Positions 57,508 to 64,000 of a DNA stretch of 64,000 nucleotides are shown one piece after another; the stretch's first letter is position 1, and the number at the start of each line of letters is the position of its first letter. The notes under the pieces were generated by a model. That model did not search any database, was not told the origin of the DNA, and saw nothing but the letters and a program-made list of their open reading frames with translations. This stretch comes from Treponema sp. GTDB taxonomy: Bacteria; Spirochaetota; Spirochaetia; Treponematales; Breznakiellaceae. The DNA lies in contig WRKT01000003.1 of assembly GCA_009777995.1 (NCBI GenBank), positions 1 through 64,000 of the forward strand, given 5' to 3'. The translations under genes were made by a program, and so were the position numbers.

Positions 57508-57777
57508 TTAAGCAATGCTTACTTTTAGTTCCTTCCCTACAGCAACAGCTACTCTATTCAGAAATTCAATTGTTGGGTTATAATTACCACTCTCAAGTCT
57601 TGAGATATTTGACTGTTTTGTTCCAATTAATTTTGCCAAGTCCTTTTGTGTTAAATTTTTCTCTTTCCGAGCCATTATAATTTCCTCAATTATTTTGTAC
57701 TCAGTTTCATTCATTTTTAGTTCATTTTGTACTTCCTTATTTTTGAGAATAATGGTTTTTGCTTTATCCCAATTCAT
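57508..57777 (-). CDS. higA: HigA-type antitoxin (XRE family HTH)
   Basis: An 89-residue protein with an XRE helix-turn-helix (ARKEKNLTQKDLAKLIGTKQSNISRLESG, around 38-66) and a short C-terminal VAVAVGKELKVSIA strand. It neutralises the toxin encoded just upstream and represses their shared promoter. Its ATG overlaps the toxin gene by 14 bases, the HigB-then-HigA order (toxin first), which is reversed from most TA pairs. Confidence 0.88.
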   Translation of the reverse strand: MNWDKAKTIILKNKEVQNELKMNETEYKIIEEIIMARKEKNLTQKDLAKLIGTKQSNISRLESGNYNPTIEFLNRVAVAVGKELKVSIA

Positions 57778-58135
57778 AATTTTGCCTCCGTAAATATTCT
57801 TTCATACGATCAAGTGCTACATTCAATTCTTTTTGTGGAGTCTTCTTTTTCTTTTTTACAATCCCATGTAATAATATGGCTATATTATTTATTGGTAAGA
57901 AGTAAAAAATACGGAATATATCTGATGCAAACTCAATTCTTAATTCCCATAAACCTTTATATTTCTTGCCTTTTATATTGTCCACATGGGGATAATGTAA
58001 TTCATTACCAAATTTTTTCAAAAGATCAATTTCTCTGTAAATTTTGGCTTGCTGTTTTGGATTTAGATCTAATATGAATCCTAAGACAGGTATTTTGCCG
58101 TCTAATTTTTCATACAGTTCTACTACATATTCCAT
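57764..58135 (-). CDS. higB: HigB-type toxin (RelE superfamily, Gp49-like)
   Basis: A 123-residue RelE/ParE-superfamily toxin of the phage-derived Gp49-like group. Features are the start VVELYEKLDGKIPVLGFILDL, the core YKGLWELRIEFASDIFRIFYFLP, and the basic LLHGIVKKKKKTPQKELNVALDRMKEYL. Such toxins cleave mRNA on the ribosome. Expressed from the promoter/operator at 58142-58170. The pair looks intact. Confidence 0.88.
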   Translation of the reverse strand: MEYVVELYEKLDGKIPVLGFILDLNPKQQAKIYREIDLLKKFGNELHYPHVDNIKGKKYKGLWELRIEFASDIFRIFYFLPINNIAILLHGIVKKKKKTPQKELNVALDRMKEYLRRQNYELG

Positions 58136-58199: not shown

Positions 58200-58431
58200 A
58201 TTAATATGTCCATTTAAAATATTATTAAATTGATCATGTGTCCTGTAACAAATGGTTGACGCAACACTGCCTGTTCGGGTGGATCCCGGTTTTCGTTCGC
58301 CTAGGTCATTCTGAAACGCTCCATTCCCACAGCTCACTATAACCCTATTTTACCGGCATTGGTCTATCACACGAGCCTTTGTAGGGGGCAAAACAAAGTC
58401 AACCTAGAATTTTAAGCCTTATTTTAGCTGT
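58200..58431. other. GC-richer non-coding stretch, possible insertion-sequence relic
   Basis: Between the HigBA promoter and the stop of the 58432 gene is about 230 bases without a credible gene. The part from about 58233 to 58410 is clearly more GC-rich than both flanks. It contains GTGTCCTGTAACAAATGG and TTGACGCAACA near the left end, which look like the terminal sequences of some insertion sequences, but all six frames are broken by stops. I see no terminator or RNA gene. Confidence 0.3.
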
Positions 58432-59133
58432 TTATCTAGAGGTGCTATCGTTTCTTAATTTTCCTAAACGAAAATGTGTGCTATGAAGAGATTCTGCGTT
58501 TGGACAATCGTATTCTTCTATGCAATCATAATACTTTAAAAGATCCTTGAATAAATCTGAATACTCTTCGCTATAAAAATGATATTCAGGTAATTTCCCG
58601 GATGATATAATTGTTTCAGTTAGTATTTCCACATAATCATCAAAATTACCGCCAAAACTCATTCCCGGATTTAATGAAACTAAACATTTTGGAGAAATAT
58701 TTCTATTTACATATAGATATTTATAAGCAGTAATGCCTTCTGATTTTACATATAAAATATTGATATTATCTTTACCCTTATGATTAGCAAAATAAGAACG
58801 GTACCTAAAAGAGTATAATTTAATAAAAGGGTCATTCCACTCGAGACGTACTTTTTTTACTAATTCTTTATTTAATTCTAAGTATTTATTCCAATCAACT
58901 CCAAATAGCTCTTTGGCATCTAAAAAAGTACTGTTTTCTAGTCTATATCCTAAAAGGCCGGAGGTTGATAATTCATAATCTAAACCTTTTATATCTGTGA
59001 AGTAATCTGAATAAACAAAATTTGAAAACATCTTACCAAGAATTTTGATTGGAGTTCCATCATTTGCACATGCAGGATAGTAAACTGAGTTTTCAAGAGA
59101 TTCTTTAAAAAGAGCTTCATTGTAATATGGCAC
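58432..59133 (-). CDS. Unknown protein, last gene of a four-gene accessory cassette
   Basis: A 233-residue soluble protein starting at GTG (AGGAGG is 5 bases upstream). I do not recognise a characterised family. Noticeable features are an N-terminal YYPACANDGTPIKILGKMFSNFVYSDY, a central NPGMSFGGNFDDYVEIL, and Tyr-, Asp- and Cys-rich segments near the end (LKYYDCIEEYDCPNAES). The acidic/Asn pattern of the first motif could be a nucleotide- or metal-binding site, but this is a guess. It follows the YaaA-like gene after 46 bases; the AT-rich composition matches the cassette. Confidence 0.6.
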   Translation of the reverse strand: MPYYNEALFKESLENSVYYPACANDGTPIKILGKMFSNFVYSDYFTDIKGLDYELSTSGLLGYRLENSTFLDAKELFGVDWNKYLELNKELVKKVRLEWNDPFIKLYSFRYRSYFANHKGKDNINILYVKSEGITAYKYLYVNRNISPKCLVSLNPGMSFGGNFDDYVEILTETIISSGKLPEYHFYSEEYSDLFKDLLKYYDCIEEYDCPNAESLHSTHFRLGKLRNDSTSR

Positions 59134-59179
59134 TTCGTCCTCCTACTAATTTTATATAGGAATTATTCGAATATTGCAA

Positions 59180-59821
59180 TCAGTCTATGTAATAATTTTT
59201 TGCAGCTTTGTAAAACCAATTCGTTGAGGCATTATCATCGAAGTGTTCGTATTCATATCCTTTAATCTTAATTATCTTTTTTGATTTATACAATATTATT
59301 TTTCTATTATCTGCCTTTAGAGCAAAATTATAGAAATAATTTAAGTAGTCTTTCCCTGCGAATAAAACTATAGGTGCATCAGAAGGTATAATATCTGAAT
59401 TAATATCATCCTGCAGATGATTAAAGTCTTCCCAATTCATATTTCCTGTTCGTCTTGTTATATTATCAGCGCGTTTTAAAAAACTTATATCATATGTTGG
59501 AATTTTGTAAGATGAACGAATAATCCCCCATCCGGCAGATAAAATATAGAAAGAGTCTTTGTATTTCTCGTATAGATATTCATAAATAATATGCCTATAT
59601 AGTTTATATGCCTGAGCTAAACCCTCATGGTTTTGTTCCTTTACCAGGTCACGCCATTTTTTATTACTGCCTGGAATTGAATCATCAGGCGTGTAATATT
59701 TATTTGAGCTATCAGTTGTGACATTTGGCGAAGCTACGAATTTAATTTTATTGTTTTCATAACAAAATGAATCTACTGTTTTTGATTTTGAACAGCATAA
59801 AATTGGAATAAATTTTTTCAT
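59180..59821 (-). CDS. YaaA/DUF6884-like protein
   Basis: A 213-residue protein. The N-terminus FIPILCCSKSK is the CSxxK motif of the YaaA/DUF6884 superfamily, and FYILSAGWGIIRSSYKIPTYDISF is its second hallmark (the 'LSAGxGLL' and 'YD' patterns). YaaA binds DNA and guards against peroxide damage; other members are linked to nucleic-acid or nucleotide modification. The long insert (about residues 25-75) makes this a distinct subgroup. Starts with ATGA overlap on the GIY-YIG gene, so the two are tightly coupled. Confidence 0.65.
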   Translation of the reverse strand: MKKFIPILCCSKSKTVDSFCYENNKIKFVASPNVTTDSSNKYYTPDDSIPGSNKKWRDLVKEQNHEGLAQAYKLYRHIIYEYLYEKYKDSFYILSAGWGIIRSSYKIPTYDISFLKRADNITRRTGNMNWEDFNHLQDDINSDIIPSDAPIVLFAGKDYLNYFYNFALKADNRKIILYKSKKIIKIKGYEYEHFDDNASTNWFYKAAKNYYID

Positions 59822-60414
59822 AACATACCTTCCTTTAAAGCTTTCTCTTTGGCACTACGCCTTGCTTTTTTTAAGTCTCTAAGAAATTCTTGTAACTCTA
59901 TTCTTTTATTACCTTGAATATTTAATGGTATAATATTGTTTTTTAAATTATCTTCTTCAATTATTTTTAAACTTTTTTTTGCGTCTTTATCTTTAACTCT
60001 TAAATTAATTGAATAATATTCTACAGTTAGTTTGTCTAAAAATTTATTAGTATTATTTTCATCTGTCTGATACCCGGAAATTAAACTAGAGATTGTCTGC
60101 CTAAATGTTGATAAAAATCCACTTTTTATATTGGATAAGCTATGCTCTTGATTTATATGCCAGTTTAGTCTTGCCCGGATAGATCCTTTAGAAGCAATTC
60201 CTATATAAATGCAAAAATATTTTTCTAGTTCTCCGGTTCCTTTTAAGATAAACTTAGAAAGATAATTAAAGTACTCTTTGCTTAAAAATATTGAATTTAA
60301 TAATGTCTTTACTTCACTTTCCTTGGCCCACCAGCGATACCAGCCTGGTAAATTTTCAGGAATATTATGAAATTGTCCATTATCTCGTAAATCTTTTGCT
60401 TTTGTTATTGTCAT
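59818..60414 (-). CDS. GIY-YIG-like nuclease-fold protein
   Basis: A 198-residue protein. The segment LPGWYRWWAKESE stands where GIY is expected, and YFCIYIGIASKGSIRARLNWHIN gives the YIG strand followed by the helix with the conserved Arg (and His). LSTFRQTISSLISGY resembles further conserved helices of this group. Such domains cut or bind DNA. The catalytic Glu and Asn cannot be placed with certainty, and the C-terminal 60 residues are very basic (RDLKKARRSAKEKALK), suggesting nucleic-acid binding. Upstream gene 38 bases away, downstream overlap of 4 bases. Confidence 0.68.
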   Translation of the reverse strand: MTITKAKDLRDNGQFHNIPENLPGWYRWWAKESEVKTLLNSIFLSKEYFNYLSKFILKGTGELEKYFCIYIGIASKGSIRARLNWHINQEHSLSNIKSGFLSTFRQTISSLISGYQTDENNTNKFLDKLTVEYYSINLRVKDKDAKKSLKIIEEDNLKNNIIPLNIQGNKRIELQEFLRDLKKARRSAKEKALKEGML

Positions 60415-60452
60415 TTCAGTTTTATTTTCTCCTTATTATGCAGAAATTCATA

Positions 60453-61298
60453 TTAAATATTAATCTCATATCCGATCATAAAAAGAGCACTTTCTAAAGC
60501 TCTAGCTTGAATGCTTCTGTCTAATAAATTAAATCTAGACTCTGTTTTGTCTAAAATCAATTTTATTAACCATGATGCTCTTATATTATTTTTTAGATAC
60601 CTACGATGATCATTTGCATATAATTCATTAAATATGTAAATTTGGCTGCTAGGGTTACGTCTATTTTCATTCTGATTTAGATTTCTTCCTCTTAAATATG
60701 AAAATCTTAGTATTTCCGGAATATTTTTTAAAGCAGAGTCTTTAGAAAATAGTCTAATAAATAAACATAATGCTGAAGAAACTCTACTATCATAAATAAT
60801 AAAGTCATCAATTATCGAAGAATATATTTTACTAAAGCCGGCATTACAATGTAATTTTTTATAACTTTCAGATTCGTCTTTGCATATTTCAAGGTTAAGA
60901 TAATGTATTGCATTTAATAAATATTCATTCAAATTTTTTATATCATTCAACTTCTTTAAATTACCTCTAGTTTCATTACCAAGAACTCCACCCCAGCTTA
61001 GTATATTTTTACAATTCTCTCTAACAAGATTAGAATCATGAGTATTTTTATATAATAAACCTAAACCCTTTTTAATCATATTCGAATAATTGCTTAATTC
61101 TATTTGATTTTGACTGAATGACCGATTTCTCCATGAATATTGCTCATAAGCAGAATACATTGAATTAAATTTATATTGATTTCTTGGTCTTTGTGTTGCA
61201 TATGAATAAATAAATGAGTTCTCTCCGTCTAATTTAGAAGAAATCCAAGAAACAAAATTATTTACATCTTTATTTTCTGAAAATTGGTTATAATTCAT
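60453..61298 (-). CDS. Unknown helical protein, first gene of the accessory cassette
   Basis: A 281-residue, mostly helical protein with no recognised family. Conserved-looking stretches are SWGGVLGNETRGN (about residue 104-117), KLHCNAGFSKIYSSIIDDFIIYDSRVSSALCLFIRLF (about 150-185), and RASWLIKLIL followed by SIQARALESALFMIGYEI at the end. The DSRVSSAL segment recalls the helix that carries a catalytic Asp in helix-hairpin-helix DNA glycosylase folds, an analogy only. AAGGAG precedes the ATG. It lies 26 bases downstream of the large repeat protein and may share its transcript. Confidence 0.6.
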   Translation of the reverse strand: MNYNQFSENKDVNNFVSWISSKLDGENSFIYSYATQRPRNQYKFNSMYSAYEQYSWRNRSFSQNQIELSNYSNMIKKGLGLLYKNTHDSNLVRENCKNILSWGGVLGNETRGNLKKLNDIKNLNEYLLNAIHYLNLEICKDESESYKKLHCNAGFSKIYSSIIDDFIIYDSRVSSALCLFIRLFSKDSALKNIPEILRFSYLRGRNLNQNENRRNPSSQIYIFNELYANDHRRYLKNNIRASWLIKLILDKTESRFNLLDRSIQARALESALFMIGYEINI

Positions 61299-61324: not shown

Positions 61325-64000
61325 CTAAAAAGCCCTAATAGCTCTAACGGAAATAGGTTCGCTGCGAGACATGCTATCCCCGGAAACGCCATCTCTAAAA
61401 TATTGATACCATGCCCCGCCATAAGGCCAACCTCCTTGTGTTGAAGACCAATACATATTTCTAGGCGGTAATCCACTTGTAACTAAATTGCCAATTAAGT
61501 TTCTATTGATATATAGTTGGTTAAGTTCATCTTTACTTGGTAGGAACCAGTCATTAAGCCCACCGCCTCTAAAATCAGAGCAAGCTTTAGCAGCGGGAGA
61601 AGATGAATCTGTAGTAAGAATTAGTGCAGTATTTCGCCTGCCCATTCCAATACCAGTTCCGGTATTAGAAATATTGGTAGCTATAAAATTACGTGATGAC
61701 CACTCAAGCAATCCGGACATATCGGTTGGTGCTGCTTCGAGGTAATGAGCGGTAATACCTACATTGTCTGTGGCAGATGTATATAATGTAAAACCACTCG
61801 TGCTTCGATAAAAAATAATGCCGCCACCGGGGCCAATATCTCCAATATTAAATGAAGAATTCATTGTCCATCTAGCAAAAAGAGTAATATTACTACTAGG
61901 TGTAAAGGAAGCGCCTGCCTGGTAGTTTGTTCCTGTACCTGATGCATTTGTGTTCCATCCGCCAAAGGTATAACCACCCCTAGTAAGACTCCCGGCGTTG
62001 GGTAGTGTAATACTAGAACCGGTCTGAACAGTTTGTGCAGATGGCGGCGAACCGCTCCCTCCGTTAGCATTATAAGTCACCGTATGGCTTACTGTAACTG
62101 CATTCCATCTGGCATACAAAGTAATACTGCTTGACGGGGTAAAAGATCCGCCTGCCTGGTAATTTGTCCCTGTGCCTGATACATTAGTGTTCCAGCCTCC
62201 GAAAGTAAAACCACTTCTTGTAAGATTTCCTGCGTTGGGCAGTGTTATACTGGAACCTGCTTGTACAGTTTGTGCAGCCGGTGGTGAACCGCTGCCTCCG
62301 TTCGCATTGAAAGTCACGGTATGACTTACAGTAACAACATTCCATCTGGCATACAAAGTTATATTAGCGGAAGGCGTAAAAGATCCTCCTACTTGGTAAT
62401 TTGTTCCTGTACCTGATGCATTTGTGTTCCAGCCTCCGAAAGTAAAACCACTTCTTGTAAGGTTTCCGGCATTAGGCAGTGTAATATTAGTCCCTGCCTG
62501 TGCATTTAGAGCAGCAGGCGGTGTACCGCTGCCACCGTTTGCATTAAATGTCACTGTATAGCTTGCAGTTACAGCATTCCATCTTGCAAATAATGTTATG
62601 CTGCTAGACGGTAAAAAAGAATCACCGGGCTGGTAATTAGTTCCGGTACCTGCTGCATTCGTATTCCAGCCACTGAAATTAAACCCGGTCCTTGAAAGAC
62701 TTCCTGCGTTTGGCAGTGTAATGCTAGATCCTGATTGAATAGTTTGCGCAGCAGGCGGTGTTCCAACACCACTGTTTGCATTATAAGTTACAGTAAGGCT
62801 TGCAGTAATGGTAATCCATCTTGCAAATAGAGTTATATTACTAGACGGTGAAAATGAATCACCGGGCTGGTAATTAGTTCCTGTCCCATTGGCATTCGTA
62901 TTCCAACCTCCGAAATTAAACCCGGTCCTTGAAAGGTTCCCTGCGTTAGGAAGTGTAATACTTGAGCCTGCCTGTGCAGTTTGAGCTGTAGGCGGTGTTC
63001 CGGTACCACTGTTTGCATTAAAAGTCACTGTATTGTCTGCAGTAACGGGATTCCATCTCGCAAATAATGTAATGCTGCCGGATGGCGAAAAAGATTCCCC
63101 GGGCTGGTAGTTAGTTCCTGTACCTGCTGCATTCGTGTTCCACCCACTGAAGGTAAAACCGGCCCTTGTAAGACTTCCTGCCCCGGGTAGTATAATACTC
63201 GAGCCTGCCTGAACAGTTTGAGCAGCAGGCGGTGTGCCGCTGCTACCGTTTGCATTAAAAGTCACTGTATGGCTTGCAACATTAGCATTCCATATTGCAA
63301 ATAACGTGATACTACCGGACGGTGTAAATGAATCTCCCGGTTGATAATTAGACCCTGTACCTGCTGTACTTGTGCTCCAACCTCCAAAAGTAAAACCACT
63401 CCTTGAAAGATTACCTCTGTCGGGGAGTGTCATTCTAGAACCGGCCTGTATAATCTGTGTTATTGGAGGAGTTCCATTACCGTTGTTTGCATTAAAAGTT
63501 ATTGTATATATCTCTGTCCATTGAGCATATAAAGTATCATTATTTGAAGGGTAAAAATAAGAACCAACACCATAATGATCTCCTGTGCCGTTCGCGTTGG
63601 TATTCCATCCATTGAAAATAAATCCGGTTCTTGTTAGACTATTTCCATTTGGAAGATTAATACTTGAGCCGGCTAAGACTGTTTGTGATACAGGAGGTGT
63701 TCCACTCCCGCCATTAGCATTAAATGTAATTGAGAAATTTGTATTACTTAAAACCCAAATAGCATATAAGGTTATATTACGAGAGATAGGAATTGATGCA
63801 TTAGGTCGATATTCAACTTCGGTATCATTAGGATCTGTACTCCAGCCAATGAAATTAAATCCACTATTCATTAGCTCACCCCTACCGGGAGCTGTAATAC
63901 TTAAACCTGCACTGACTGTCACTGAGGGGGGAGGATTCCCGATTCCGCCATTTGGCTCATATGTTACTGTGTATGATGCTCCACTGCTCCAAAAAGCATA
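61325..64000 (-). CDS. Large surface protein with InlB B-type repeats and a DUF1566 end (5' partial)
   Basis: The reading frame is open to the window edge, so the N-terminus and signal peptide are missing. The visible ~890 residues contain about nine tandem copies of a 79-residue Listeria-Bacteroides/InlB B-repeat unit (consensus VTFNANGGSGTPP, then QAGSSITLPNAG, SGFTFGGWNTNASGTG, ITLFARW), a beta-grasp stalk module. The last ~170 residues are a DUF1566-type domain (GGGIIFYRS, WFLPSKDELNQLY, YWSST, SVRAIRAF), often found at the ends of surface adhesins. Likely a secreted or cell-surface adhesin or binding protein. Confidence 0.88.
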   Translation of the reverse strand, partial: YAFWSSGASYTVTYEPNGGIGNPPPSVTVSAGLSITAPGRGELMNSGFNFIGWSTDPNDTEVEYRPNASIPISRNITLYAIWVLSNTNFSITFNANGGSGTPPVSQTVLAGSSINLPNGNSLTRTGFIFNGWNTNANGTGDHYGVGSYFYPSNNDTLYAQWTEIYTITFNANNGNGTPPITQIIQAGSRMTLPDRGNLSRSGFTFGGWSTSTAGTGSNYQPGDSFTPSGSITLFAIWNANVASHTVTFNANGSSGTPPAAQTVQAGSSIILPGAGSLTRAGFTFSGWNTNAAGTGTNYQPGESFSPSGSITLFARWNPVTADNTVTFNANSGTGTPPTAQTAQAGSSITLPNAGNLSRTGFNFGGWNTNANGTGTNYQPGDSFSPSSNITLFARWITITASLTVTYNANSGVGTPPAAQTIQSGSSITLPNAGSLSRTGFNFSGWNTNAAGTGTNYQPGDSFLPSSSITLFARWNAVTASYTVTFNANGGSGTPPAALNAQAGTNITLPNAGNLTRSGFTFGGWNTNASGTGTNYQVGGSFTPSANITLYARWNVVTVSHTVTFNANGGSGSPPAAQTVQAGSSITLPNAGNLTRSGFTFGGWNTNVSGTGTNYQAGGSFTPSSSITLYARWNAVTVSHTVTYNANGGSGSPPSAQTVQTGSSITLPNAGSLTRGGYTFGGWNTNASGTGTNYQAGASFTPSSNITLFARWTMNSSFNIGDIGPGGGIIFYRSTSGFTLYTSATDNVGITAHYLEAAPTDMSGLLEWSSRNFIATNISNTGTGIGMGRRNTALILTTDSSSPAAKACSDFRGGGLNDWFLPSKDELNQLYINRNLIGNLVTSGLPPRNMYWSSTQGGWPYGGAWYQYFRDGVSGDSMSRSEPISVRAIRAF
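61870..63760 (-). repeat. Tandem array of ~237-bp coding repeats
   Basis: The B-repeat units repeat with a period of 237 bases in the 3' half: for example ATTCCATCTGGCATACAAAG recurs at 62102 and 62339. Units near the 3' end of the gene (61.9-62.6 kb) are nearly the same as each other, while units toward the 5' end (63.3-63.9 kb) have diverged and vary slightly in length. This gradient fits recent duplication or homogenisation at one end. Confidence 0.88.

Follow-up and report, generated by a model that had tools for sequence, protein, structure and literature searches.

Do four short genes packed together in the most AT-rich part of a treponeme contig make up one system, and what might they do? 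The question is raised by the first 64,000 nucleotides of contig WRKT01000003.1 from Treponema sp. (assembly GCA_009777995.1; hereafter the window), which contain a 2867-bp cassette of the genes A, B, C and D, encoding proteins of 281, 198, 213 and 233 amino acids. A preliminary description, made from the sequence alone, took the four genes for a single candidate system. The analysis reported here narrows this to the two middle genes. B, a GIY-YIG nuclease, and C, a DUF6884/YaaA-like protein, represent a version of the defence candidate PDC-M57 that has another nuclease subfamily. As a tentative reading, held with slightly less than even confidence, this two-gene module would restrict foreign DNA, guided by modified bases or lesions. 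The layout of the cassette is as first described: all four open reading frames are present on the minus strand, in the transcription order A, B, C, D, with a gap of 38 bases between A and B, an overlap of 4 bases between B and C and a gap of 46 bases between C and D. The AT-richness also holds, since the cassette has a GC content of 27.9%, the lowest among 245 stretches of the same size in the 64 kb (median 42.4%), with 25.5-29.6% in the single genes.

Gene B bears out the guess of a GIY-YIG-like protein, as it matches GIY_YIG_2 (PF20815, Pfam) with an E-value of 3.9e-22. The GIY and YIG motifs are present together with the conserved Arg/His, Glu and Asn, and in a five-sequence alignment of B and four relatives the residues Y26, Y70, R82, H86, E153 and N165 are invariant. 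The corresponding residues of R.Eco29kI, a Type II GIY-YIG restriction enzyme, are Y49, Y76, R104, H108, E142 and N154; mutagenesis, which covered all of these but Y76, has shown the set to be important (PMC1952068). Compared as residue patterns, both proteins have the same types of active-site residues and the same spacings, 4 between Arg and His and 12 between Glu and Asn, and because of this agreement B looks catalytically intact. Unlike in R.Eco29kI, no methyltransferase gene adjoins B, and neither the four cassette genes nor the scanned neighbours matched a methyltransferase family. Gene B has no significant sequence match to any solved GIY-YIG structure in the PDB and no PADLOC match at E<=10, nor does its relative P0018 have one at E<=1.

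With regard to gene C, the match to DUF6884 (E=3.8e-5, 24.3 bits) lies under the Pfam cut-off of 30 bits, which the C homologue P0016 passes with 33.5 bits. The two conserved motifs, defined as in PMC11701544, are intact in C as CxxxK (C10-K14) and LSAxxG (LSAGWG, 94-99), in keeping with the YaaA/DUF6884 assignment proposed earlier. According to the Pfam 2024 paper, DUF6884 is distantly related to YaaA, with which it has a positively charged cleft in common, and its member YfjM has been modelled flipping a base and interacts with abasic and RNA-base lesions (PMC11701544). The E. coli YaaA is involved in protection from peroxide and co-purifies with DNA (PMC4834066). On the strength of its motifs, C is expected to adopt the DNA-binding 'cantaloupe' fold of E. 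coli YaaA and B. subtilis YfjM; these are, however, stand-alone stress or repair proteins for which no nuclease partner has been described. Gene C also matches the PADLOC profile of DpdC (E=3.5e-6) and, weakly, that of PDC-M57A (PDLC04712; E=6.9e-6, residues 70-166), which matches P0016 at 2.1e-7 and P0017, the partner of a B relative in another treponeme, at 3.5e-24.

The pairing of a GIY-YIG nuclease with a DUF6884 protein is not restricted to the window. Any part of a concatenated B-C-D query was matched in 6 of the 247 genomes of the phylum, and relatives of B with 39-40% identity lie beside a DUF6884 gene in five treponeme genomes of three genera, three of them (G019, G031, G165) from the phylum search and two (G1237 and G283, adding two more genera) from a wider search of the order. 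There, the B relative comes directly after a DUF6884 gene, a short one in the three genomes of the phylum search, with a 4-base overlap of both genes in G283, and A and D are missing. A second, divergent GIY-YIG-like family, PDC-M57B, is found beside DUF6884/YaaA-like genes in four further genomes (G002, G301, G440 and G387, the last three at loci L110, L131 and L133), and again the two genes overlap by 4 bases in G387. The order in G002 is a DUF7663 protein, a 233-amino acid protein with no Pfam match that matches PDC-M57B in PADLOC (E=8.5e-84), and a relative of C. Finally, G273 (L182) encodes both parts in one fused protein, with DUF6884 (PDC-M57A, 1.9e-47) followed by the nuclease domain (PDC-M57B, 7.8e-88). 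The pair thus recurs with different subfamilies, with overlapping genes and as one fusion, and the earlier view of GIY-YIG and YaaA/DUF6884 as a meaningful, defence-like combination was right. In G301, the PDC-M57B-like gene (G301:C2:54417-55099; about 16418-17100 of L110, minus strand) lies beside a YaaA-like gene in two pieces, one of which has a stop, and appears to be broken by a frameshift or a sequencing error.

It is because PADLOC already models a GIY-YIG-like protein (B) with a DUF6884 protein (A) as PDC-M57 that the window pair is placed as a variant of this candidate. The combination, which the preliminary description did not recognise as a named system, is therefore already catalogued and not wholly unrecognised, although none of the papers searched uses the name PDC-M57. 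PDCs are unvalidated defence candidates derived from guilt-by-embedding (PMC12988326). Both modules consist of two genes, C weakly matches the PDC-M57A model, a C homologue occurs next to a PDC-M57B gene in G002, and G273 has the module in fused form. The window pair differs in its gene order, with the nuclease first.

From the published knowledge of DUF6884, YaaA and DpdC, C would be the handler of the DNA base and B the cutter. In the proposed mechanism, C would bind DNA and flip or recognise a modified or damaged base, B would then cut the DNA, and the two proteins, acting together physically, would direct restriction against foreign DNA. A C-type recogniser could team with various nucleases, and an arrangement on two Roseomonas plasmids (L008 and L009, 1578-6678 each) is consistent with this: a TM0106-type RecB-like nuclease, a middle gene and a C homologue form three overlapping genes, which are faced by an HNH endonuclease gene. 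The protein encoded by the middle gene has a possible nuclease-like motif.

Several observations weigh against reading the pair as a PDC-M57-like defence module. The B protein belongs to the PF20815 subfamily and does not match the PDC-M57B model, and C, which represents a divergent and larger type of DUF6884 protein, matches PDC-M57A only weakly. The PDC-M57B-type genes at L128-L130 and L132 have no DUF6884 neighbour, so the pairing of this family with DUF6884 is frequent and not universal, and G1187, a genome of the same family as the window, carries a C relative (47% identical) without B or D. Moreover, none of 22 general GIY_YIG_2 loci of Pseudomonadota, Bacillota and Bacteroidota had a DUF6884 neighbour in a motif scan of 1.5-kb flanks, and general GIY_YIG_2 genes were dropped as a defence marker on this account. 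The treponeme pairs, furthermore, are surrounded by ordinary genes, with no obvious defence islands.

These ordinary neighbourhoods also speak for a different function, namely DNA repair, in which C would recognise an oxidised, abasic or ribonucleotide-bearing position and B would incise the DNA as in excision repair, defence not being the purpose. The peroxide protection and DNA co-purification reported for YaaA (PMC4834066) and the lesions with which YfjM interacts (PMC11701544) would suit such a pair. Conversely, its patchy distribution in the phylum, the accessory, AT-rich island beside a toxin-antitoxin pair, the candidate status in PADLOC and the variable partner nucleases all argue against repair, which on balance seems rather unlikely, if well worth considering.

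The DUF6884 core and the weak DpdC profile matches of C bring in another alternative, based on the 7-deazaguanine (Dpd) modification and restriction system: C could be a DpdC-like DNA-modifying enzyme and B a nuclease that cuts DNA either lacking or bearing the modification. In the scan of the four cassette proteins, however, none matched DpdA (TGT-like) or DpdB, C is the only Dpd-like protein among them, and the cassette holds no other base-inserting gene. C is also shorter than DpdC (213 amino acids against profiles of about 310 positions), and the single-protein fusion with a nuclease at L182 would be unusual for a modifier. Such a modification-restriction pair is accordingly improbable.

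Genes A and D were described as lacking a recognisable family, and indeed neither has a convincing match in Pfam, NCBIfam or PHROGs. Gene A is nonetheless a member of a widespread, separate and unnamed protein family: a profile scan of species genomes detected 185 relatives, the best 80 of which come from Bacillota, Bacteroidota, Pseudomonadota and several further phyla, and tblastn also found relatives on plasmids of Pseudomonas, Cupriavidus and Paraburkholderia. By tblastn, none of the best 80 A loci (L010-L089) contained B, C or D, and A was rejected as a member of a four-gene system for this reason. Instead, 43 of these 80 loci hold a member of one common neighbour cluster, often directly upstream and divergent, and in P. 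luteola this position is taken by an annotated WYL-domain gene. Many Pseudomonas A loci adjoin a WYL-like regulator gene. In some genomes A lies in defence-rich regions, with Bunzi, Shango, dCTPase, BREX, Mads and candidate systems at some of its loci; its immediate neighbours are not clearly richer in defence genes than genes at least 4.5 kb away. The AlphaFold model of A, built from 48 sequences, is very confident, with a predicted local distance difference test score (pLDDT) of 95.4 and a predicted template modelling score (pTM) of 0.93, and in a Foldseek search of the PDB no solved structure proved to be related (best match with E 0.058 and TM 0.14), so that the modelled structure may represent a new fold. 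Inspection by eye of Syntrophomonas G301 (L110:3094-12954) showed that an A homologue shares an operon-like row with an ADP-ribosylglycohydrolase-like gene and several genes for dynamin-like GTPases; the PDC-M57B-like and YaaA-like genes of that genome lie about 12 kb from this row. In the window, A is probably a neighbour of the pair rather than part of it.

Gene D has relatives at L095, L097 and L105. One genome of the same phylum (G195, with two loci) and one viral contig carry D relatives without B or C nearby, those of G195 near an amidotransferase-like and an AAA ATPase-like gene. The viral relative was found with the D alignment; as single queries, A, C and D had no match in viral contigs (B was not among the queries). 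The model of D is Rossmann-like and of low confidence (pLDDT 68, pTM 0.73), and the best matches of this low-confidence model in a fold search, to methyltransferases, were not significant (E ~0.03). D may be a distant relative of DUF7663. It has no Pfam match to this family (PF24699), and hhalign with the DUF7663 protein of G002 (P0024) gave an E-value of 0.0028 and a probability of 11% with a three-sequence profile. The two proteins have landmarks in common, YYPAC..DG in D against WYPSAG..D, FVYSDY against FIHTDY, and PG.SFGGN against GGGFGGGG. A search for DUF7663 in 180 Pseudomonadota genomes found no match but was uninformative, as the controls gave none either. The presence of the DUF7663-like gene beside the PDC-M57 pair in G002 is only suggestive of a link between D and the pair. 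If the likeness were real, a single three-gene set would exist in two forms, as B-C-D in the window and as D'-B'-C in G002; this is not claimed here.

The common direction, tight spacing and similar GC content of the genes, together with the D-like landmarks of the G002 protein whose gene precedes the PDC-M57B gene and C homologue, are the grounds for regarding the whole cassette, or its B-C-D part, as one system. Against this stand the 80 A loci devoid of B, C and D, the lone D relatives of G195 and the viral contig, the treponeme pairs without A and D, and the C relative without B or D. The original four-gene proposal does not survive these results, and a single system, in either form, has little probability. 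Most probably, A and D entered this AT-rich island as accessory genes independent of the pair, which D may modulate in certain lineages.

At the other extreme, the island could be an integration hot spot in which unrelated accessory genes piled up, with B and C adjacent by coincidence. The preliminary description had considered that the four genes might be scattered independently in relatives; this is the case for A, C and D, each found separately elsewhere, but not for the GIY-YIG/DUF6884 pair, whose independent recurrence and fusion make a coincidental adjacency very improbable.

With regard to the surroundings (Table 1), the toxin-antitoxin pair reported next to the cassette is present. The 'GC-richer relic' of the preliminary description is sustained in its composition only: this intergenic stretch of the AT-rich island has 47.5% GC, a repeat search found no other copy in the genome, and Rfam gave no match. 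On the other side of the cassette, a large protein with a GTG start has nine repeats of the List_Bact_rpt (Flg_new) type and, under the Pfam cut-off, an Lcl-type C-terminal region; it is probably secreted or located at the surface. None of the A, B, C and D proteins matched phage records, and in an empty-site comparison within the genus the sole match was a chemoreceptor gene region.

Table 1. Position of the cassette genes and adjoining features in the window.
Feature	Coordinates	Strand	Remarks
Gene A	60453..61298	-	First gene of the cassette
Gene B	59818..60414	-	GIY-YIG nuclease
Gene C	59180..59821	-	DUF6884/YaaA-like protein
Gene D	58432..59133	-	Accessory protein; GTG start
Intergenic stretch	58240..58420		GC-richer
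Gp49-type toxin and HTH antitoxin pair	57508..58135	-	PF05973, E=4.2e-25; PF01381 (HTH_3), E=1.8e-13; context, outside the system
Large repeat protein	61325..63922		

Beyond the window, the several distant subfamily combinations and the fusion raise the possibility, more doubtful than the reading of the pair itself, that GIY-YIG and DUF6884/YaaA modules form a widespread class of restriction systems that sense bases and are directed by modifications or lesions. PDC-M57 and the window pair would be branches of this class, sometimes with a third component of the D/DUF7663 type. The catalogued candidate is widened past the nuclease subfamily that its models detect, and annotation tools based on those models consequently miss the form found in the window. 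For the common YaaA/DUF6884 proteins, a nuclease that recurs as their partner, in one case by gene fusion, provides a direct experimental handle on molecular activity.
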